Positions 1 through 38,888 of a stretch of DNA of 39,357 bases are shown here, piece after piece. A model generated the notes under the pieces. The model was not told the DNA's origin. It saw nothing but the letters and a program-made list of their open reading frames with translations, and ran no database searches. The stretch's first letter is position 1. Each line of letters starts with the position of its first letter. The stretch is from Flavobacteriales bacterium (GTDB lineage: Bacteria > Bacteroidota > Bacteroidia > Flavobacteriales_D > Sanyastnellaceae): the NCBI GenBank assembly GCA_029238785.1, contig JAQWFN010000093.1, positions 1 through 39,357 of the forward strand. Direction: 5' to 3'. The position numbers and the translations under genes were made by a program.

Positions 1-48
1 TGTTGATGCTGAACTCGGGATGATTTCACAATGCCTTTAGACTCAACT

Positions 49-270
49 CGCGCAAGCGTCTAAACAGGAGCAAAGCGACCCCTAAACAGGCGAAGCCCTA
101 AACTAAAACATCAACCCAAGCCTAAACAAATCCGCGCAAGCGTCTAAACAGGAGCAAAGCGACCCCTAAACAGGCGAAGCCCTAAACTAAAACATCAACC
201 CAAGCCTAAACAAATCCGCGCAAGCGACTAAACAGGAGCAAAGCGACCCTAAACAGGCGAAGCCCTAAAC
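49..270. repeat. 84-bp tandem repeat array punctuated by CTAAAC
   Basis: Three copies of an 84-bp unit start at 49, 133 and 217; the first two are complete and nearly identical, the third is truncated after about 54 bp. Each unit contains the hexamer CTAAAC four times (GTTTAG on the other strand), separated by short spacers such as AGGCGAAGCC and AGGAGCAAAGCGACCC. The unit length is a multiple of three, but no credible ORF runs through it. It lies directly downstream of the minus-strand gene ending at 306, so relative to that gene the punctuation reads GTTTAG. A related element occurs at 35338-35708. The first 48 bases of the window hold no recognisable feature. Confidence 0.9.
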
Positions 271-305
271 CAAACCGCTCTAAACAAAAAACGTCTCCCG
301 AAAAA

Positions 306-3950: not shown

Positions 3951-4727
3951 ATGACGCAAACCCACCTCCATATTGCTGCGCAGTATTTGGCATCAGCGGC
4001 AGATCTTGTACTGCCAAAAGAAGACGATGATAACCACCGTAACTTCGCTTGGAACCCCATTACCTCGGCGCTTGAAACGCACTATTTTAGCGATCAACAC
4101 CTGAGAATGGTGCTCTCCTACGAAGATTTTGCACTGTTCTTCGTGAATCAAAACAATGAAATTCTGGTGGAATTCGACCTGGGTGGGTCGAAACACAGCG
4201 AAGTGATTGCATGGATTGAACGTTCGTGGAAAGAACTGAATTTAAAAGGAAATTTCCGTTTTCATTGGCCAGAGAACCTGCCCCTTAAGGCCATTGATGC
4301 GCACTATACTTTTCCAAAACCAGACGAAGACCTCTTCGAAATGTTGGAGATCTATGCCGAAGAACGAACCATGGCCCAACGCGCTATGATCGATGCCATC
4401 AAACCCAACAACATCCGGGTTTGGCCGCACCATTTCGATACGGGGGCGTTGGAAGTGCTTGAAATGGACGAGAAGGGTGAACTTTTGATGAGCATTTCTA
4501 GCGGACTAGCCATTGCAGATGACTTGGTGAACGAAGACTATTGCTATGTGTCTGGATGGAAAAAGTCAGGAAAAATTGGATTAAACACAGCACTGCCTTG
4601 CGGCGAAGGCACTTGGTTAGATGAGGGGCATTTTCAAGGCGCCGTGTTGAAGATGCTCGACCCCGAGCCGGAAATGCTCAAGACCTTTTTCGAAGAAGCT
4701 CACGCTTCGATGAAGTCGCTCTTTTAA
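3951..4727 (+). CDS. Conserved unknown protein at the end of the egt operon
   Basis: 258 residues, soluble, no signal peptide. I do not recognise it with certainty. The segment around residues 160-166 (VWPHHFD, followed by TGALEV) and the later GLAIADD, YCYVSGW and GTWLDEGHFQGAVL resemble the WPHHFD...PYFYV layout I associate with DUF5996-type proteins, but that assignment is tentative. The paired histidines in WPHHFD could bind metal (inference). It follows the DUF427 gene by 33 bp. A weak -7-like TACCTTCC (3938-3945) ends 5 nt before the ATG, so it may also have its own promoter. Its stop lies 11 bp from that of the convergent PLP enzyme. Confidence 0.8.
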   Translation: MTQTHLHIAAQYLASAADLVLPKEDDDNHRNFAWNPITSALETHYFSDQHLRMVLSYEDFALFFVNQNNEILVEFDLGGSKHSEVIAWIERSWKELNLKGNFRFHWPENLPLKAIDAHYTFPKPDEDLFEMLEIYAEERTMAQRAMIDAIKPNNIRVWPHHFDTGALEVLEMDEKGELLMSISSGLAIADDLVNEDYCYVSGWKKSGKIGLNTALPCGEGTWLDEGHFQGAVLKMLDPEPEMLKTFFEEAHASMKSLF

Positions 4728-4738
4728 AGGCACTGCAC

Positions 4739-5845
4739 TCACTTCGAAAATACTGCTAGTAAAGCATCCACATCTTCCTCGTTGTTGTAGGCGTGAATGC
4801 TGAAACGGATGGCCTTTCCGCGCACAGAACAATCGATCTTGGAAGCAGCTAGGGCCTCGGCGTACTCCTTTTTGTTCGGGATGCACAAGATGTTGGCACG
4901 GTCAAAATCATCCAAATCAGGATCTCCAATCAGCTCAATAGATTGTGCCTTTAATCCCGCGCTTAGTCGGACACTTAAGGCACGAATGCGCGCTTCGATG
5001 TCTGAAATGCCTATGTGATGTGTCAGTTTCAGCGCTTCCAAGAGTCGGGCAAACACCTCATGATCTTTATGCCCCGGTTCAAACATTTTAATGCCCGGCT
5101 CGTAGTGCATCGCCCCATCATCATCAAAAACCAAATTGTTCTGACTCGCCATACAAAATGAAAAATCGGCCAAAAGCGCCTCACTGATGTAGGCTATTCC
5201 AGCACCGTATCCGCCCATCAACCACTTGTAGGTGCTGGCTAAGTAGGCATCAACATGGAGTCTGTTTAAATTCGTTTCAATAGCGCCAAAAGCTTGAGTT
5301 CCATCAACAATTAGCTTTACGCCATACTTCTTTGTAATAGCTGAAATTCTTACTAAATCAACACACCAACCAGAATTGTAATGCACTTGAGAAATCGCAA
5401 AATAAGGGGGCTGATGTGCTTTAATGGCCGCTTCGATTTCGGCGTAACTCACCTTGCCGTTTTGTTGCTCTCCAATATAGGTGATCTCAAAACCCGCTGT
5501 TTGAAAAGGCAAATAGAGGCTGGGATAATCCTCGCGCATCATCATCACCTTTTTGTTTTTTAGGTTTTGGGTGATGACGTTCATCCCGCTAGAATAATTG
5601 TGTAACAAGGCCATATTGCTTGCTGATACCCCTAAAATTTCAGCAGACAGCGTACGAATTTCATCCTTCATCGCCTCAAATTCATGCAGCCGATAATGAG
5701 TCAGCTCCTGCATGTATTGCTTGCGAACGGCGACGAGTTTTTCCTCCACAATTGGGTGAATTAAACCCGCAAAAGCCGTGTTGAAATATGGTCTTTTCTC
5801 TAAAACAGGGAAGTAAGCGCGCAGTGCTTGCCAAGTTGCATTCAT
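4739..5845 (-). CDS. Class-V PLP-dependent aminotransferase/lyase (candidate EgtE-like C-S lyase)
   Basis: 368 residues, fold-type I PLP enzyme of the class-V aminotransferase/NifS group. Asp181 in IVDGTQAFG should contact the pyridine nitrogen, and Lys207 in STYKWLMGGYGAG is the expected Schiff-base lysine. No NifS-type catalytic-cysteine loop (RTGHHC) is visible, so cysteine desulfurase activity is unlikely. EgtE, which cleaves the hercynyl-cysteine sulfoxide to ergothioneine, belongs to this fold, and the gene ends 11 bp from the egt operon on the opposite strand. A role as the missing C-S lyase is therefore plausible but inferred only from fold and position; other class-V enzymes (kynureninase-like, isopenicillin-N epimerase-like) are alternatives. 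A -7-like TATCTTCC (minus strand, 5850-5857) ends exactly 4 nt before the ATG. Confidence 0.85.
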   Translation of the reverse strand: MNATWQALRAYFPVLEKRPYFNTAFAGLIHPIVEEKLVAVRKQYMQELTHYRLHEFEAMKDEIRTLSAEILGVSASNMALLHNYSSGMNVITQNLKNKKVMMMREDYPSLYLPFQTAGFEITYIGEQQNGKVSYAEIEAAIKAHQPPYFAISQVHYNSGWCVDLVRISAITKKYGVKLIVDGTQAFGAIETNLNRLHVDAYLASTYKWLMGGYGAGIAYISEALLADFSFCMASQNNLVFDDDGAMHYEPGIKMFEPGHKDHEVFARLLEALKLTHHIGISDIEARIRALSVRLSAGLKAQSIELIGDPDLDDFDRANILCIPNKKEYAEALAASKIDCSVRGKAIRFSIHAYNNEEDVDALLAVFSK

Positions 5846-12262: not shown

Positions 12263-12440
12263 ATTTAGGAATTGAGAATTAAGAATTGGGAATGACGAAT
12301 TAGGAATTTGGGGATTGGGCGAAAGTGCTGAGGTGAAATACATCCATAAAACAAGGTATTGCTCGCTTCGCCAACACCACTATAGGAGACTGAGCGAGCC
12401 GAAGTCGGAGGGGGTGAACGTTTGGATGAATGGCGAATTT
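12263..12440. other. Intergenic stretch with GAATT repeats and a GC-rich segment
   Basis: From 12266 to about 12310 the sequence is a run of imperfect GAATT/GGAAT repeats (AATTGAGAATTAAGAATTGG and similar). The following 12345-12420 contains self-complementary fragments (GCTCGCTTCGCC and GACTGAGCGAGCC). I see no gene here; it leads into the decayed four-helix-bundle gene. Confidence 0.4.
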
Positions 12441-32551: not shown

Positions 32552-32582
32552 TTGATGTTCTTCGGAGCATTCAATTACTTTG
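32552..32582 (+). promoter_or_regulatory. Possible promoter of the T9SS subtilase gene
   Basis: TTG (32552-32554), a 20-nt spacer and TTACTTTG (32575-32582) match the Bacteroidetes promoter except for the second base of the -7 element. It lies 26 nt before the ATG at 32609. Confidence 0.4.
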
Positions 32583-32608
32583 AAAGAAACCTGTATACCT
32601 ATTTACTC

Positions 32609-35239
32609 ATGAGATGTATTGCACTTATTGCTGCAGTGATGTTTTCGACCCTTCTTTTTGGTCAGATGGAACACGCCAGCGGAGAACTTATTGTTCAGCT
32701 TAAAGACAACAATCAAGTTGAAGCCCTTATTCAAGATTTTTCTGAAATCAACGGCAATGACACTGAATTCAGTTTAATTGAAGAACTCAGTGCACCAATG
32801 CACCTTTGGCACTTTAAATTCAACCCAGAGCTTATTGATGAGTCGGTATTACTGCGCTTGGTGAAACAAAACCCCAACGTCAGCCTTGCTCAATTCAACC
32901 ACTTTGTACAAAAACGTGAAACCACACCCAACGACCCGGTTTACGGAAACCAATGGCATCACGAACAAAACAACGATAAAGACATTGATTCTGACCTCGC
33001 TTGGGACATTACAACTGGTGGATTAACGGCTGCTGGTGATGAAATTGTTGTTTGTGTCATCGAGGGAGGTAACCTCAATCACCCCGATTTGATCGATAAC
33101 AAATGGGTGAATGAAAACGAAATTCCAGACAACGGCATTGATGACGATAACAACGGCTACGTAGACGATTACGAAGGTTGGAACGTCAACAACCAAAACG
33201 ACAATTTCGGTGCAACAAATGGTCATGGCACCAACGTATGCGGAATGATTGGCGCTAAAGGAAACAATGAAAACGGTGTTGCTGGAATCAATTGGGATGT
33301 GAAAATCATGGGAATTAGCGGCTACAACATTGGAAGCGAGTCCAACATTATTCAGTGCTATACTTACCCATTGGTTCAGCGTCAATTGTATGCACAAAGC
33401 AATGGAGAATTGGGCGCTTTTGTTGTGGCAACCAACGCCTCTTGGGGTATTGATGGAGGTGATATCAACAGCGTTCCGGTATGGGCGGCGTTTTACGACA
33501 CTTTAGGAACCTATGGTATTTTGAATTGCGGTGCTACAACCAACTCTGCTTTAAATGTAGATGTAGTGGGTGATATCCCAACTGCAGCTCCTAGCGACTA
33601 CATGATTTCTGTTACAGCAACAAATTCAAACGATGTTAGAACTTTCTCTGGCTACGGACAAACAACCATTGATCTTGGTGCTCCAGGGGAAGATGTTTGG
33701 ACCTCCTCTGGATCTGGACAAACAACAAGTACTTCAGGAACCAGCTTTGCTTCGCCCTTAACCGCTGGAGCAATTGCCTTGTTGTATTCTGCTCCTTGTC
33801 CTTCACTCGCGCAAATCATGCATGCCGACCCTCAAGCAGCGGCGGATTTGGTGAGACAAGCTTTATTTGATGGGGTAGACTTGGTACCCAACTTAACTAC
33901 TGAGTGTGTTACCGGTGGGCGATTAAATGTATTCAACAGCTTACAAATCCTTTTGAATAATTGCTCTTTTGACGAATGTTTACCGCCGTTTTCTGTTGCC
34001 GCTACTCCTGCTGCAGATGGTGCTTACAGCATTACTTGGAACGGTTTGGGTTCGATGACGTCTTTTGGTTTGAGATACCGCGAAGCAGGTACTCCTGATT
34101 GGACCAACATCGAAGGCATCGAAGGAAGCACTTACCTTTTAGAAGACCTCCTATGGTGTTCTGAGTATGAGTTAGAAATGTATGCGAACTGCGAAAATGG
34201 AGATAGCGACTGGACCAGCACCTTGACCTTTGAAACCGACGGATGTTGCGAATTACCCGCCGACGATAGTTTGGTGATTTCCAACCTCAGTGAGAATGGG
34301 GTGAGTTTAACTTGGGAAAGCGTTTTAGCAGCGAGCAGTTACCAATTGAGCATTACGCCAGAGGGTGGATCACCCATTCTTGTTGAAGGCATTGAGGTAA
34401 ACAATTACACTTTCAGCGATTTAACGCCTTGTACCGATTATGAAGTGATGATCGGTATCATTTGCCAAGACGGTACGGTGCTCGCTTTAGAAAATTATGA
34501 TGATTTCAGAACTCAGGGATGTGGGGCTTGTACTGACAATGAGTATTGTTTTACATCTGCTGAAGGAACAGAAGAATGGATTGATGAAGTAGGTGTTTCA
34601 AATGTTGTTTCAAACACTGGTTCTGATGGCGGCTATGGCGATTACACTGGCGACGAAAGTCTTGGATGGGTGTATTACAAGCAGAATCCAGAGTATAATA
34701 ACATCACCCTAATTCCTGGTTTTGATGGCAGCACATACAACGAAAACTTTAAGGTTTGGATTGACTTCAACCAAGACGGTGAATTTGGTGATGGAGAAGA
34801 GATTGTTTCTGAAACCAGCAATCAAGGAATTACAGTTGACAACATTGCTATTCCTACTGATGCCTTGGTAGGAAGCACCAGAATGAGAATTTCAATGCGT
34901 TGGAGTTCGTTCAACCAACCTGCTCCTTCGCCTTGCGCCGAGTACGAGTTTGGTGAAGTGGAAGACTATTGCATCTTCATTGAAGAATTCAACAGTGTTG
35001 ATGAAAACGCTGTAAGCACCTTGAACATCTATCCTAACCCGGCCAACGACATGGTGAACTTGCCCATGAATGCTGCGGTGAATTACGAGCTTTGCGATGC
35101 CAGTGGAAGAGTCATACTACGCACCAACGGAACAGTTGGAAGCATTCAGCTCGATCAGCTTTCAAATGGCTTATACTTTTTGAGGTCGATTGGAGCGGAA
35201 GGAATGATTTCGAGCACTAAATTGATTGTTCAGCACTAA
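32609..35239 (+). CDS. Secreted subtilisin-like (S8) protease with T9SS sorting domain; catalytic Asp position is Glu
   Basis: 876 residues from the ATG at 32609 (signal peptide about 1-19, cleavage near FGQ); an upstream in-frame ATG would put a non-hydrophobic leader before it. A propeptide-like region (about 26-115) precedes the S8 domain (about 125-455): the position of the catalytic Asp reads VCVIEGGNLNHPDL (Glu152), the His motif is NGHGTNVCG (His206) and the Ser motif is SGTSFASP (Ser379). A Ca-binding-like stretch DNGIDDDNNGYVDD follows the first motif. Next come two fibronectin-III-like domains (about 465-560 and 565-650), a GEVEDY-type beta domain (FGDGEEIV to EYEFGEVEDYC) and a type-A T9SS C-terminal domain beginning NIYPNPANDMVN. 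It is probably exported and surface-attached or released. With Asp replaced it may be less active or inactive. Confidence 0.93.
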   Translation: MRCIALIAAVMFSTLLFGQMEHASGELIVQLKDNNQVEALIQDFSEINGNDTEFSLIEELSAPMHLWHFKFNPELIDESVLLRLVKQNPNVSLAQFNHFVQKRETTPNDPVYGNQWHHEQNNDKDIDSDLAWDITTGGLTAAGDEIVVCVIEGGNLNHPDLIDNKWVNENEIPDNGIDDDNNGYVDDYEGWNVNNQNDNFGATNGHGTNVCGMIGAKGNNENGVAGINWDVKIMGISGYNIGSESNIIQCYTYPLVQRQLYAQSNGELGAFVVATNASWGIDGGDINSVPVWAAFYDTLGTYGILNCGATTNSALNVDVVGDIPTAAPSDYMISVTATNSNDVRTFSGYGQTTIDLGAPGEDVWTSSGSGQTTSTSGTSFASPLTAGAIALLYSAPCPSLAQIMHADPQAAADLVRQALFDGVDLVPNLTTECVTGGRLNVFNSLQILLNNCSFDECLPPFSVAATPAADGAYSITWNGLGSMTSFGLRYREAGTPDWTNIEGIEGSTYLLEDLLWCSEYELEMYANCENGDSDWTSTLTFETDGCCELPADDSLVISNLSENGVSLTWESVLAASSYQLSITPEGGSPILVEGIEVNNYTFSDLTPCTDYEVMIGIICQDGTVLALENYDDFRTQGCGACTDNEYCFTSAEGTEEWIDEVGVSNVVSNTGSDGGYGDYTGDESLGWVYYKQNPEYNNITLIPGFDGSTYNENFKVWIDFNQDGEFGDGEEIVSETSNQGITVDNIAIPTDALVGSTRMRISMRWSSFNQPAPSPCAEYEFGEVEDYCIFIEEFNSVDENAVSTLNIYPNPANDMVNLPMNAAVNYELCDASGRVILRTNGTVGSIQLDQLSNGLYFLRSIGAEGMISSTKLIVQH

Positions 35240-35284
35240 AAAAGCTAGAATAAGTAAGCAAACCTGCAAGAATGCTTATTGAAG

Positions 35285-35319
35285 AACCCGGAGCACAGTG
35301 GCGTGTTTCGGGTTTTTTT
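35285..35319 (+). terminator. Terminator of the subtilase gene
   Basis: AACCCG..CAC and GTG..CGGGTT form a stem followed by TTTTTTT, 45 bp after the stop. Confidence 0.8.
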
Positions 35320-35337
35320 CTGGTCGAATGAAAATGG

Positions 35338-35708
35338 GTTTAGAGCTGCGCCAGTTTAGGTTGCTCGCGCAACTGTTGAAGCGCTTTCGCGTGGGGGTTT
35401 AGCTTGCTGACACATTGTTTTGAGTAGGCCTATTCAAAAAATACTTCATAAATCGAAATTCGTTAATCCTTGTTCGATATTCTTTTCGATTGATGAACAA
35501 GGCATACTGACTAACGATGGAAAAGGTTTAGGGCTACGCCGGTTTAGGTTGCTCGCGCAACTGTTGAAGCGCTTTCGCGTGGAGGTTTAGCTTGCTGACG
35601 CATCGTTTTGAGCTCTCCAATTCATTAAAAACTTCTAAAATCGATCTTCGTTAATCGATATTCGATATTCTCTTTTCGATTGAAGAACAAGGAACACCGA
35701 TTAGCGAT
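35338..35708 (+). repeat. Two tandem ~180-bp GTTTAG-punctuated elements
   Basis: Copy A starts at 35338 and copy B at 35526 (period 188). Each begins GTTTAG-(AGCTGCGCCA or GGCTACGCCG)-GTTTAG-(a hairpin GTTGC-TCGC-GCAAC plus a GC-rich stretch)-GTTTAG-CTTGCTGAC, nearly identical in both. Each continues into an A/T-rich half with TCGTTAAT, TTCGATATTC and GAACAAGG. In copy A the second half can fold: CCTTGTTC pairs with GAACAAGG, inside TCGTTA/TAACGA. The GTTTAG-GGCTnCGCC module is shared with the array at 49-270. It lies between the subtilase terminator and the 3' end of fic and contains no ORF. Confidence 0.88.
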
Positions 35709-35732
35709 TTTTGAAGTGGATTTGGAGGAGTG

Positions 35733-36851
35733 TTAAAATCTGTTCGAGCAACTCAAATCAAAATTTAGTGCGTAGGATGTACTTCTTCCACCAGATTCAT
35801 TCTTCCTCAAAATTCCTTTTTCGATCAAATCGTTGATGTCTCTTGTTGCCGTCATTTTGGTGCATTTCGTCATTCTAGTCCATTTTGAAGAGGTCATTTT
35901 ACCCTCAAAACCATCGACCAATTTCTTCAGCACCTTTATTTGGCGATCGTTCAATTTTACATGAGCGTTTTTCTGCCAAAATTGTCTTTTGAAATCGACC
36001 TTGATAAGCACCTTTTCTGCATTGGTAATGGCCTCTTTGAGTATTTCAAAAAACCACAAAATCCCGTTTGAAAGGTCTAAATCATCATTACTCGATTTGT
36101 TCAGTTGGTGGTAATATTCTTTTTTATTCAAAAGGATGGTATTGGAGAAACTGTAGAACCGCAATGCTGATTTATCTGCTTCACACAATAATTTATCAAC
36201 TATGGCCCTTCCAATTCTTCCATTTCCATCATCAAAGGGGTGAATAAGCTCAAACCACAAATGAGCAATGGCCGCTTTAAGAAAAGGATGTTGGTTGTTT
36301 TCATTAATGTAAGCAATCAATTCCTGCATCATTGAAGGAACCAATTGTGAATTAGGAGCTTCGTAGTGAACAATTTCTCTTCCCATTGCTCCAGAAACAA
36401 TTTGCATGGGTTCTTTTGATGTTCTCCAATGCCCAACTTCTATTTTTTTGCCTGCTGACCTTCCCGTTGGAAATAGCCCTGCGTGCCAATCAAACATTCT
36501 TTCCTCAGTTATTGGTTCTTGATAATTCCTCGTTGCATCTAAAAACAGATTTACAGCGCCCTCAGCCTCTTCTGATTTTTCGAAAGAACTTTCTTGAATG
36601 TCAATACCTAGATTTTTAGCGATGGAAGATCTAATTTGTGATTCCATGAATACTTCACCCTCAATCTCACTGTTGTTCATCACATCCAAAATCCCAGTCT
36701 CCAAAGCAGACTTCTCTTTTGCTTCAAATCCCAAAATATCTAATTTACCTAACAATTGATTTTGAAGGGCAACGAGTTCCAATAAGCTATTGTTCACCAG
36801 CTTTTCGTCCCAAAAAAAATGAGGCCAATTTCTCAATTTATAGACATACAT
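35733..36851 (-). CDS. Fic-domain protein (probable AMP-transferase) with C-terminal winged helix
   Basis: 372 residues. The N-terminal DUF4172-type region contains NNSEIEGEVF (about residues 59-68), where many relatives have (S/T)xxxE(G/N) as inhibitory motif; here the first position is Asn rather than Ser/Thr. The Fic motif is complete: HPFDDGNGRIGRA, with the catalytic His and the phosphate-binding GNGR loop. The last about 70 residues (DRQIKVLKKLVDGF to a TATRDINDLIEKGILRK recognition-like helix) form a predicted winged helix. Fic proteins usually transfer AMP to target hydroxyls. The DNA-binding end and two palindromes over the start (36851-36911) suggest autoregulation (inference). TATATTCG (minus strand, 36856-36863) ends exactly 4 nt before the ATG. 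Confidence 0.92.
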   Translation of the reverse strand: MYVYKLRNWPHFFWDEKLVNNSLLELVALQNQLLGKLDILGFEAKEKSALETGILDVMNNSEIEGEVFMESQIRSSIAKNLGIDIQESSFEKSEEAEGAVNLFLDATRNYQEPITEERMFDWHAGLFPTGRSAGKKIEVGHWRTSKEPMQIVSGAMGREIVHYEAPNSQLVPSMMQELIAYINENNQHPFLKAAIAHLWFELIHPFDDGNGRIGRAIVDKLLCEADKSALRFYSFSNTILLNKKEYYHQLNKSSNDDLDLSNGILWFFEILKEAITNAEKVLIKVDFKRQFWQKNAHVKLNDRQIKVLKKLVDGFEGKMTSSKWTRMTKCTKMTATRDINDLIEKGILRKNESGGRSTSYALNFDLSCSNRF

Positions 36852-37569: not shown

Positions 37570-38835
37570 TCATTCACAAGAAGCACCAAAACTTCCTAAG
37601 CACTCAAGCAAGTCCGCTGCATTGACCACTCCATCAATGTTTAAGTCCGCTGGACATATATTCTCAGGAACAGAGGCTACTCCATCAGCAAAAGCTCCAT
37701 CGTAAACCGCTTGGTCATTTGAAGTGATATCACAATCTTCATATACGCATGACCCATCATCAAGAGTCGCATTAGCATTGAAATTAGATGCTTCTTCATA
37801 AGTACATCCAGTGATTTCATTTGAATCACAGATGCCATTTAAGTTATAATCACTAATACAGTCACCACCACATATACCTAGAGCATCAGTAACAATATCA
37901 GGACATCCACACTCATAGATAGCACCAAGGCCATTACATACACCACATTCGTCTAGCTCGCCGCCTATACAATCGTCCACATCGTCGCAGATGCCATCGG
38001 CGTCAGCATCGGCCGCACAAGTACCGCCGCACACACCAAGGGTATCAAGCATATTTCCATCGCAGTCGCAAGCGCCGTCTGGGATACCTGTTCCTCCACA
38101 TACTCCACACTCATCAAATACGTTCCCTTCACAGTCACAAAAACCTTCTGGAATGCCGAAGCAAGAACCATCGTCCATTGTTGCAGTGTCATCGTAGTTA
38201 CAAGCGGTAGTATCTGTGCAACCTAACACAGGGCAGTTCTCGGTTGTGTAGGAGTTGAGGTGTGGCGGTACTTCAATCCATAAGCCGCACTGGTTGATGG
38301 TACTGTAGTTGAAGATGGCACCGTGGTTGAAGATGAGCCCGTTGTTTTCGATGAGCTCGTTGTTGTCGATGAGCCCGTTGTTTTCGATGAGCTCGTTGTT
38401 GTCGATGAGCCCGTTGTTGTCGATGAGCCAGCTGTTTTCGATGAACCCGTTGTTGTTGATGAACCCGCTGTTGTTGATGAACCCGTTGTAGATGAACCCG
38501 TTGTCTTCGAAATTGGATCTGTTGCTGATGAACCCGTTGTTGTTGATGAGCCCGCCGTTGTCGATGTTGATGGTACTGTAGTTGAAGATGAACCCGTTGT
38601 TGTCGATGATCCCGTTGTTGTTGATGATCACGAAGTTGTTGATGATGTCGTTGTTGACGACGGTCAGTCCAGCGGGAATGGTGGCCTCATTAACTAGGGC
38701 AGGCAACCCATTACTCCAGTTACCAGCAATACTCCAATCGGTGCTAATGGCTCCAGTAAAAGTGGTTTGAGAATAAGTAGCAGTTGACAAAAAGCAGAAT
38801 ACTGCTAGAGATAGAAATGAGACTAAGGTTTTCAT
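37570..38835 (-). CDS. Secreted hexapeptide-repeat, Cys-rich protein with dockerin-like C-terminus
   Basis: 421 residues from the ATG at 38835 (signal peptide about 1-22, ending ATYSQ); a start 11 codons upstream is possible. After a short G.W..GLP segment come about 18 six-residue repeats of the form G(F/L)IxNN (residues about 60-175), which should stack as a beta-solenoid. Then follow GCTDTTACNYDDTATMDDGS and a related GCTYEEASNFNANAT copy, CDCxGNxxDxCGVCGG modules, a TSP3-like Ca-binding stretch (ADADADGICDD) and a C-terminal DLNIDGVVNAADLLECLGSF that resembles a dockerin Ca loop. The modules are typical of exported proteins of marine Bacteroidetes. No canonical T9SS domain is present; the dockerin-like end may serve in anchoring or sorting (inference). 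The DNA repeats (18/36 bp) are nearly identical and prone to slippage. Confidence 0.88.
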   Translation of the reverse strand: MKTLVSFLSLAVFCFLSTATYSQTTFTGAISTDWSIAGNWSNGLPALVNEATIPAGLTVVNNDIINNFVIINNNGIIDNNGFIFNYSTINIDNGGLINNNGFISNRSNFEDNGFIYNGFINNSGFINNNGFIENSWLIDNNGLIDNNELIENNGLIDNNELIENNGLIFNHGAIFNYSTINQCGLWIEVPPHLNSYTTENCPVLGCTDTTACNYDDTATMDDGSCFGIPEGFCDCEGNVFDECGVCGGTGIPDGACDCDGNMLDTLGVCGGTCAADADADGICDDVDDCIGGELDECGVCNGLGAIYECGCPDIVTDALGICGGDCISDYNLNGICDSNEITGCTYEEASNFNANATLDDGSCVYEDCDITSNDQAVYDGAFADGVASVPENICPADLNIDGVVNAADLLECLGSFGASCE

Positions 38836-38857
38836 GGCTTTGGTTAAGGTAATGCTA

Positions 38858-38888
38858 CAAAGATACAAAGTGAGTCTAGACTACGCAA
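38858..38888 (-). promoter_or_regulatory. Promoter of the hexapeptide-repeat protein gene
   Basis: On the minus strand TTG (38886-38888), a 20-nt spacer and TATCTTTG (38858-38865): a full match to the Bacteroidetes consensus. The same 20-nt spacing is found at rplM. It predicts a 5' UTR of about 18 nt. Confidence 0.7.

Follow-up and report, generated by a model that had tools for sequence, protein, structure and literature searches.

Polar strings of GTTKAR-tagged mini-hairpins dispersed in a Flavobacteriales genome resemble REP/BIME elements

The window, a stretch of 39,357 nucleotides from a Flavobacteriales bacterium (contig C91 below), contains two distant arrays in which the hexamer GTTTAG separates short, hairpin-like sequences. 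The question raised by this locus is whether such arrays are elements of mRNA 3′ ends, binding arrays for a protein, by-products of mutation or copies of a dispersed DNA element. We lean, at slightly better than even confidence, towards the last of these: the arrays would represent copies of a composite DNA element akin to REP/BIME, polar and interspersed, which acquires and loses units between its tags. Action at the DNA level is more likely than action as mRNA 3′ ends.

The arrays and their grammar

GTTTAG occurs 33 times in the window, against 18.05 ± 4.47 in 100 shuffles, none of which reaches 33. Twelve of these tags lie on the minus strand between 60 and 285 (array 1) and six on the plus strand at 35338–35590 (array 2). 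TRF reports tandem repeats at the same places, with a period of 84 (49–274, 2.7 copies, 97% matches) and of 188 (35337–35692, 1.9 copies, 85% matches), bearing out the original prediction of GTTTAG-punctuated arrays at two loci. The common spacer GGCTnCGCC described for both also recurs, three times as GGCTTCGCC in array 1 and as GGCTACGCC at 35532 in array 2. Array 1 is real, but the limits first given to it were too narrow; it spans 42–285 and its last tag is GTTGAG, at 42–47. GTTGAG, GTTGAA, GTTTAA and GTTTAT also separate hairpins, and the tag consensus is GTTKAR. The features of the two loci are:

42–285, minus strand: array 1, three tandem composites of h1 (head), hB (body) and hE (tail), with 12 GTTTAG and one GTTGAG
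255–264, minus strand: h1 of the first composite, GGCTTCGCCT; other h1 at 172–181 and 88–97
234–248, minus strand: hB of the first composite, GGTCGCTTTGCTCCT, an imperfect hairpin; other hB at 150–165 and 66–81
212–227, minus strand: hE of the first composite, TCGCTTGCGCGGATTT; other hE at 128–143
48–59, minus strand: third hE, shorter and left unlabelled by the labelling script
188–205, minus strand: linker between composites, GCTTGGGTTGATGTTTTA, 18 bases, non-hairpin; a second at 104–121
35285–35319, plus strand: terminator-like sequence before array 2, AACCCG ... CGGGTT and then a T run, kept in the sister species G001; read by eye, its loop exceeding the limit of the terminator scan, and hence not in the scan's list
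35338–35415, plus strand: array 2, copy 1, with h1 at 35344–35353, h2 at 35360–35374, h3 at 35381–35396 and h4 from 35403
35526–35603, plus strand: array 2, copy 2, with h1 at 35532–35541, h2 at 35548–35562, h3 at 35569–35584 and h4 from 35591
35604–35708, plus strand: the 188-bp unit's tail, itself a distinct dispersed sequence of inverted-repeat character with several copies in this genome and G001

Each composite of array 1 follows the formula GTTTAG-GGCTTCGCCT-GTTTAG-(G)GGTCGCTTTGCTCCT-GTTTAG-[A/T]CGCTTGCGCG... Contig C66 ends in the same 141 bases with which the window opens. This places array 1 at a contig junction and makes its copy number uncertain, and the end of C66 is counted as the same array. 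In array 2, h1 is AGCTGCGCCA or GGCTACGCCG, h2 GTTGCTCGCGCAACT, h3 GCGCTTTCGCGTGGNG and h4 CTTGCTGACRCA. The tags of copy 1 are, in order, GTTTAG, GTTTAG, GTTGAA and GTTTAG; since variant tags are part of the same grammar, array 2 has four hairpins per copy.

Several other sequences accompany the arrays or share the window with them. An AT-rich dispersed sequence of ∼90 bp and inverted-repeat character, TTCGTTAATC...TTGTTCGATATTC...GATTGAAGAACAAGG, is found at 35416–35525 and 35604–35708, at L084 and L090 of the same genome and at L351, L352, L354, L355 and L356 of G001, adjoining a hairpin string at some sites and standing without one at others. Array 2 is flanked by genes for a subtilase with GEVED, fn3 and a type IX secretion tail (32552–35239, plus strand) and for a Fic/DUF4172 protein (35733–36851, minus strand). 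A further gene (37570–38868, minus strand) encodes a protein with asparagine-rich six-residue repeats of the LIDNNG/FINNNG type, partly coded by an 18-bp tandem repeat at 38321–38660, and its stretch at about 38158–38235 matches many places in G001. A 21-bp low-complexity repeat, GGAATTGAGAATTAAGAATTG, lies at 12268–12317, and runs like AATTCCTAATT come after some arrays elsewhere in the genome, for example on C15 and C39.

The hairpin loops follow one rule: read along the tag strand they are C-T(N)NY-G, equivalent to cRNAg or cRNNAg on the CTAAAC strand. Cores of the form GC-T(N)NY-GC outnumber GC-R(N)NA-GC on the tag strand by 90 to 1 in 17 array stretches of this genome, and by 30 to 1 in eight array stretches of G001. 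The most frequent loops in this genome are TTC, TTT, TGGC, TGC and TTGC on the tag strand, and GAA, AAA, GCCA, GCA and GCAA, closed by C-G, on the CTAAAC strand. Its hairpins are mostly imperfect: 26 of 62 distinct spacers pass even a lenient stem test, 21 of them with T..C loops and none with G..A loops, and under a stricter test only three arrays have two hairpins. By the stem test, two Saprospirales genomes yield 82 hairpins among 89 distinct spacers (NAT133; 79 T..Y, no R..A) and 33 among 41 (JALWSS; 31 T..Y, no R..A). The loops d(cGNAg) and d(cGNNAg) are among the most stable in DNA. The tetraloops GCCA and GTCA (GNYA) fall outside the GNRA loops of RNA, which mildly favours DNA over RNA.

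The units are also ordered. A typical composite runs from a head hairpin, h1 (GGCTNCGCC), through a variable number of body hairpins to a tail hairpin with a GCTGRCGC or GCTTGCGC core. Two array types, h1-hB-hE and h1-h2-h3-h4, have h1 in common, and the units within an array stand head to tail, with no alternating orientation. In all 15 composites in which the script labelled h1 (11 in this genome, four in G001), it comes first, and none of the eight labelled hE is followed by a body hairpin within the same composite; the starts of composites, taken as the array start or the position after a tail hairpin or linker, leave these counts some freedom. The order prevails with exceptions. The C120 array begins with h2 and repeats it, body hairpins follow a tail-like hairpin in C36b, the C11 array fits neither type, and nine arrays or composites in this genome and four in G001 have no labelled h1.

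Folding energies of 42–187 and 35526–35604, both strands, are no better than those of shuffles for DNA (z 0.74, 0.49, 0.52 and −0.72) and give no signal for RNA (z −0.08, −0.14, 1.13 and −0.20). The predicted DNA fold of the CTAAAC strand of 35526–35604 is four separate hairpins, minimum and centroid being the same. We measured stem covariation on 46 distinct units from NAT133, 12 of them from one array (71 units were found in two genomes; the 25 of JALWSS were left out). In this set 91.3% of cells are paired (shuffles 62.1 ± 2.3; best slid version 46.1), 76 cells are changed on both sides (shuffles 27.4 ± 4.3) and the covariation score is 0.767 (shuffles 0.230 ± 0.029; best slid version 0.194), values reached by none of 500 shuffles. 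The other two of the five measures are weak: 24 of 500 shuffles are as high in both-side-changed pairs, and 100 of 500 in further pair types.

Dispersal and gene context

In the 3.11-Mb genome, GTTTAG-N-GTTTAG-N-GTTTAG with a spacing of 6–36 bases gives 35 overlapping matches, against none for the reversed pattern. A relaxed two-tag pattern gives 67 against 12, and a one-tag pattern 132 against 86, far less clear than the triple pattern. At least 17 loci were read:

C8, C11, C14 (two), C15, C23, C36 (two), C39, C52 (weak), C91 (the window, two), C96, C110, C120, C121 (two)

The arrays are thus found at many loci rather than just two, and the idea of a modular element in which a fixed hexamer stands between variable mini-hairpins holds genome-wide. 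On C36 (L085), a single convergent gap holds two arrays that face one another (3954–4129, plus strand, and 4767–4920, minus strand), starting 20 and 8 bp past the gene ends; facing pairs also occur in NAT133 (L307, L310).

All context counts rest on gene calls from an in-house dicodon script. With rows of one locus merged, one convergent case obtained through the C66–window join, and C52 and C96 left out, 15 loci of this genome comprise seven convergent, three co-directional sense, one co-directional antisense, two divergent and two contig-end placements, and no predicted gene spans an array at any of the 15. Scans for terminator-like sites gave none in 1–1500 of the window and one in 35000–36000, at 35948–35967, outside array 2.

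GTTTAG-GCTTCGC-GTTTAG occurs in at least 113 stretches of GTDB contigs; among the 80 titles listed, 69 are Bacteroidota (Salinivirgaceae and Paludibacteraceae MAGs, Saprospirales, a Flavobacteriales MAG and others), six Cloacimonadota and one Idiomarina, some single matches look like chance, and the clustering by lineage rests on a search selected by the tag. A pattern scan of 296 genomes drawn from the phylum matched only the genome of the window. The Idiomarina locus (L156, I. aquatica, a gammaproteobacterium) has tandem GTTTAG-GCGCTTCGCGCG-GTTTAG units. A scan of viral sequences for the same string gave five stretches, while controls with other tags gave 34, 7 and 5 and a reversed loop 7; this is background only, with no sign of a tag or loop preference, and viral carriage is not supported.

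Among the 80 sites listed, the Saprospirales genomes NAT133 and JALWSS place GTTTAR between many different hairpins, the same architecture as here, whereas Salinivirgaceae have single hairpins inside low-complexity GTTTAG/GTTGAG repeats; the two may not be one phenomenon. Pattern counts, which are mixed with simple repeats, are 191 versus 3 in NAT133, 29 versus 1 in this genome, 105 versus 43 in JALWSS and 4 versus 8 in G434. A model of NAT133 units, R1, gave one match (E 0.52) over 20 stretches of this genome and G001, being a 25-base model of little power, and two over 18 foreign loci, which both fall in L114, one of the genomes it was built from. R1 does not find the arrays of the window, and the likeness shown to Saprospirales is therefore one of architecture.

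The original prediction took the position of both arrays downstream of a gene, with GTTTAG on its sense strand, as a sign of a possible role at RNA 3′ ends, where strings of hairpins in the 3′ UTR would stabilise mRNA or end transcription. Seven of the 15 loci are indeed convergent, a placement that would suit a transcriptional role too; three of the four co-directional ones are sense, and where the gene 5′ of the array is on the same strand (11 loci), the array starts 8–98 bp past the stop codon in nine. However, array 2 (and array 1 too, if C66 joins it) lies in a convergent gap, where the gene on the 5′ side is always sense, so that sense orientation there is uninformative. Only co-directional loci inform on orientation, which leaves four in this genome, three sense and one antisense; few as these are, they show no bias of the kind on which the original prediction had staked the 3′-end idea, and on its own terms the idea fails. 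Two further loci are divergent, the terminator-like sequence at 35285–35319 already precedes array 2, and array 1 has no such site in its surroundings (1–1500).

Other lineages are even or reversed. The arrays of NAT133 and JALWSS together fall into 11 co-directional sense, 10 antisense, six convergent, three divergent and three edge placements, with three of the 14 JALWSS arrays unclassified. The foreign set of 113 loci (119 sites) has 62 antisense sites, a median of 53.5 bases from a start codon, against 14 sense, 16 convergent, five divergent, one inside a gene and 21 at an edge, although related MAGs with orthologous sites dominate this set and the counts are not independent. With RNA folding no better than shuffles and no Rfam family matched at gathering score over eight sources, we consider a 3′-end RNA element unlikely.

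Tag direction bears on another proposal, that the tags or hairpins are binding sites for a nucleoid or replication protein, in the way that BIMEs are bound by gyrase and IHF. In 43 of 46 foreign gaps that hold two or more tags of each strand, many of these gaps being orthologous, plus-strand tags lie left of minus-strand ones, so that tags tend to run from the gene edge into the gap. The corresponding count is three of five gaps in NAT133, three of three in JALWSS and a single gap in this genome, and there is no candidate protein. Of the two array ends, the 5′ one lies closer to a gene in 15 of 19 cases in NAT133 and 10 of 11 in JALWSS, a measure biased where two arrays share a gap, and in eight of 12 loci in this genome, too few to weigh. 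Since the arrays were found by their tag, its constancy is no evidence for protein binding, and we regard a binding array as very unlikely.

Unit turnover and spread

G001, a sister species within the genus that is 77% identical over 16 kb, carries array 2 at the orthologous position. Its copy 1 lacks 43 bases, exactly tag to tag, from the second tag to just before the fourth, and its copy 2 differs by one base in h1-h2-h3. Identity in 50-base windows is 0.96 and 0.94 in h1-h2-h3 of copy 2 and 0.52–0.94 elsewhere, the gap aside. Of the two C14 gaps compared, one has in G001 an array beside the same gene on the same strand, with GTTGAG tags and CTCGG bodies; in the other the G001 array is on the opposite strand. 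Two more copies lie on C68 of G001.

The notion that arrays are confined to one species is therefore wrong in part, G001 carrying arrays with more GTTGAG tags. GTTTAG and GTTGAG number 50 and 9 in this genome and 5 and 14 in G001, a difference biased by the use of GTTTAG to find the former. The body GGTCGCT..CTCC occurs 18 times in this genome and once in G001, and at most three times in any other relative. The triple pattern is present in seven of 59 other relatives; by eye, none of the seven has hairpin spacers.

Among orthologous foreign sites, seven groups could be aligned; three show whole-unit differences (two exact 24-bp units between L168 and L210, and others among L199/L212/L220 and between L148 and L191) and four mixed differences. 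Together with the block missing from G001 and the 84-bp and 188-bp tandems, these unit-wise differences support expansion and contraction between tags.

Such turnover could be all there is: direct repeats and quasi-palindromes may grow in neutral intergenic DNA by slippage and template switching, with no mover and no function. That units differ tag to tag, that Salinivirgaceae hairpins sit in low-complexity GTTTAG/GTTGAG repeats and that no Y1 transposase was found in this draft genome all fit such a by-product. The strict loop polarity does not, and the head-body-tail order at unlinked loci, with the orthologous array on the opposite strand, suggests copying to new places. We therefore find a purely mutational origin rather doubtful.

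For the composite DNA element that we prefer, the CTAAAC strand would fold as single-stranded DNA with loops of the cGNAg/cGNNAg kind. Slippage or annealing between the direct-repeat tags at replication would add and remove units, and either recombination or an activity on single-stranded DNA, provided in trans, might copy composites to new gaps. Any effects on nearby genes are regarded as secondary. This reading builds on the observed loop polarity, prevailing order, dispersal, unit-wise differences and an orientation to genes that is not fixed. Against it count the ordinary folding energies, the imperfect stems of most hairpins in this genome, the exceptions to the order, the two weak covariation measures, the four foreign groups with mixed differences and the failure to find a Y1 transposase in this genome.

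PF01797 (Y1 transposase) has no match at E ≤ 0.001 in the draft genome of the window, while five of 14 control genomes are positive. Among 23 array-bearing genomes, 17 have it at E ≤ 0.001 (16 of them over the cut-off) and six, this one included, do not. Around 12 foreign Y1 loci, out of 29 matches, inspection of ∼1.5 kb flanks by eye revealed no tagged hairpins; for these 12, a simple REPtron/RAYT association is rejected. More speculatively, and with a rather low chance of being right, Bacteroidota and their neighbours might harbour a class of single-strand-DNA elements that spread as GTTKAR-guided strings of cGNAg/cGNNAg mini-hairpins, each string with its head and tail, and that depend for movement on an enzyme outside PF01797.

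Comparison with known systems

The arrays were originally said to fit no CRISPR, REP or known IS. As to REPs this holds for strict membership, but REP/BIME elements are still the nearest known kind. CRISPR arrays have repeats of ∼23–50 bp and unrelated spacers, whereas here the repeat is 6 nt and the mini-hairpin spacers are common to several loci. The scans of 1–1500 and 35000–36000 do not identify the arrays as intrinsic terminators. IS200/IS605 elements have left and right end hairpins that TnpA recognises, and insert 3′ of a short target; head and tail hairpins exist here, no TnpA was found in the draft genome and no clean empty site was obtained. A small palindrome in many intergenic copies, at least 17 loci here, is a REP trait; the unit hairpins are smaller than the 20–40 bp of REPs, the tag is GTTKAR instead of a terminal unpaired GTAG or CGTC, and the draft genome lacks a dedicated RAYT with flanking copies, as the GTAG type has. 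BIMEs have REPs in alternating orientation, whereas here the units of an array stand head to tail; two whole arrays do face each other at C36. By these tests the arrays belong neither to the GTAG/CGTC REPs nor to the BIMEs.

PMC3733652 defines REPs by an unpaired terminal GTAG or CGTC tag, and notes that some GTAG/CGTC families are species-specific and that CGTC REPs also occur without a dedicated transposase. Those REPs and our arrays share short intergenic palindromes, an unpaired tag at one end, clusters and complementary stem variants; in contrast, GTTKAR flanks each hairpin on both sides, and the arrays have a prevailing head-body-tail order and loop polarity. TnpA-Y1 subclass 2.6 of Bacteroidetes, described in PMC6006769, is alike in phylum, which the type IX secretion tail indicates for the window, and in having structures repeated elsewhere in the host genome, but its "atypical secondary structures" flank the gene, and the genome here is without a Y1 gene. 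The short REPs of REPtron Mb in Marinomonas (PMC8266576) are perfect 10-nt palindromes with a 4-nt interruption and a tag two bases off, similar to the units here, but have a GTAG tag and lie near a tnpA gene. TAACTGA repeats of Beggiatoaceae and five Bacteroidetes resemble the arrays as a fixed short intergenic motif sporadic over distant lineages; in some species these direct repeats are oriented toward start codons (PMC4679880), and they are a bare heptamer with no hairpin between motifs, unlike the arrays.

No description of GTTTAG-tagged hairpin arrays was recognised in the literature searched. Such arrays would lend themselves to testing how hairpin DNA spreads and is maintained, and whether the stability of DNA loops is itself under selection; the latter can be tested directly on the NAT133 arrays, in which one tag precedes dozens of different near-perfect hairpins. 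The small dispersed repeats of cyanobacteria are likewise very small, apparently mobile hairpins. Well-studied REPs carry a GTAG tag and often a Y1 transposase, and the arrays described here differ in tag, in order and in the lack of a Y1 gene found in the genome; as dispersed, tagged, intergenic palindromes they resemble REP/BIME elements and look like an undescribed cousin of them.
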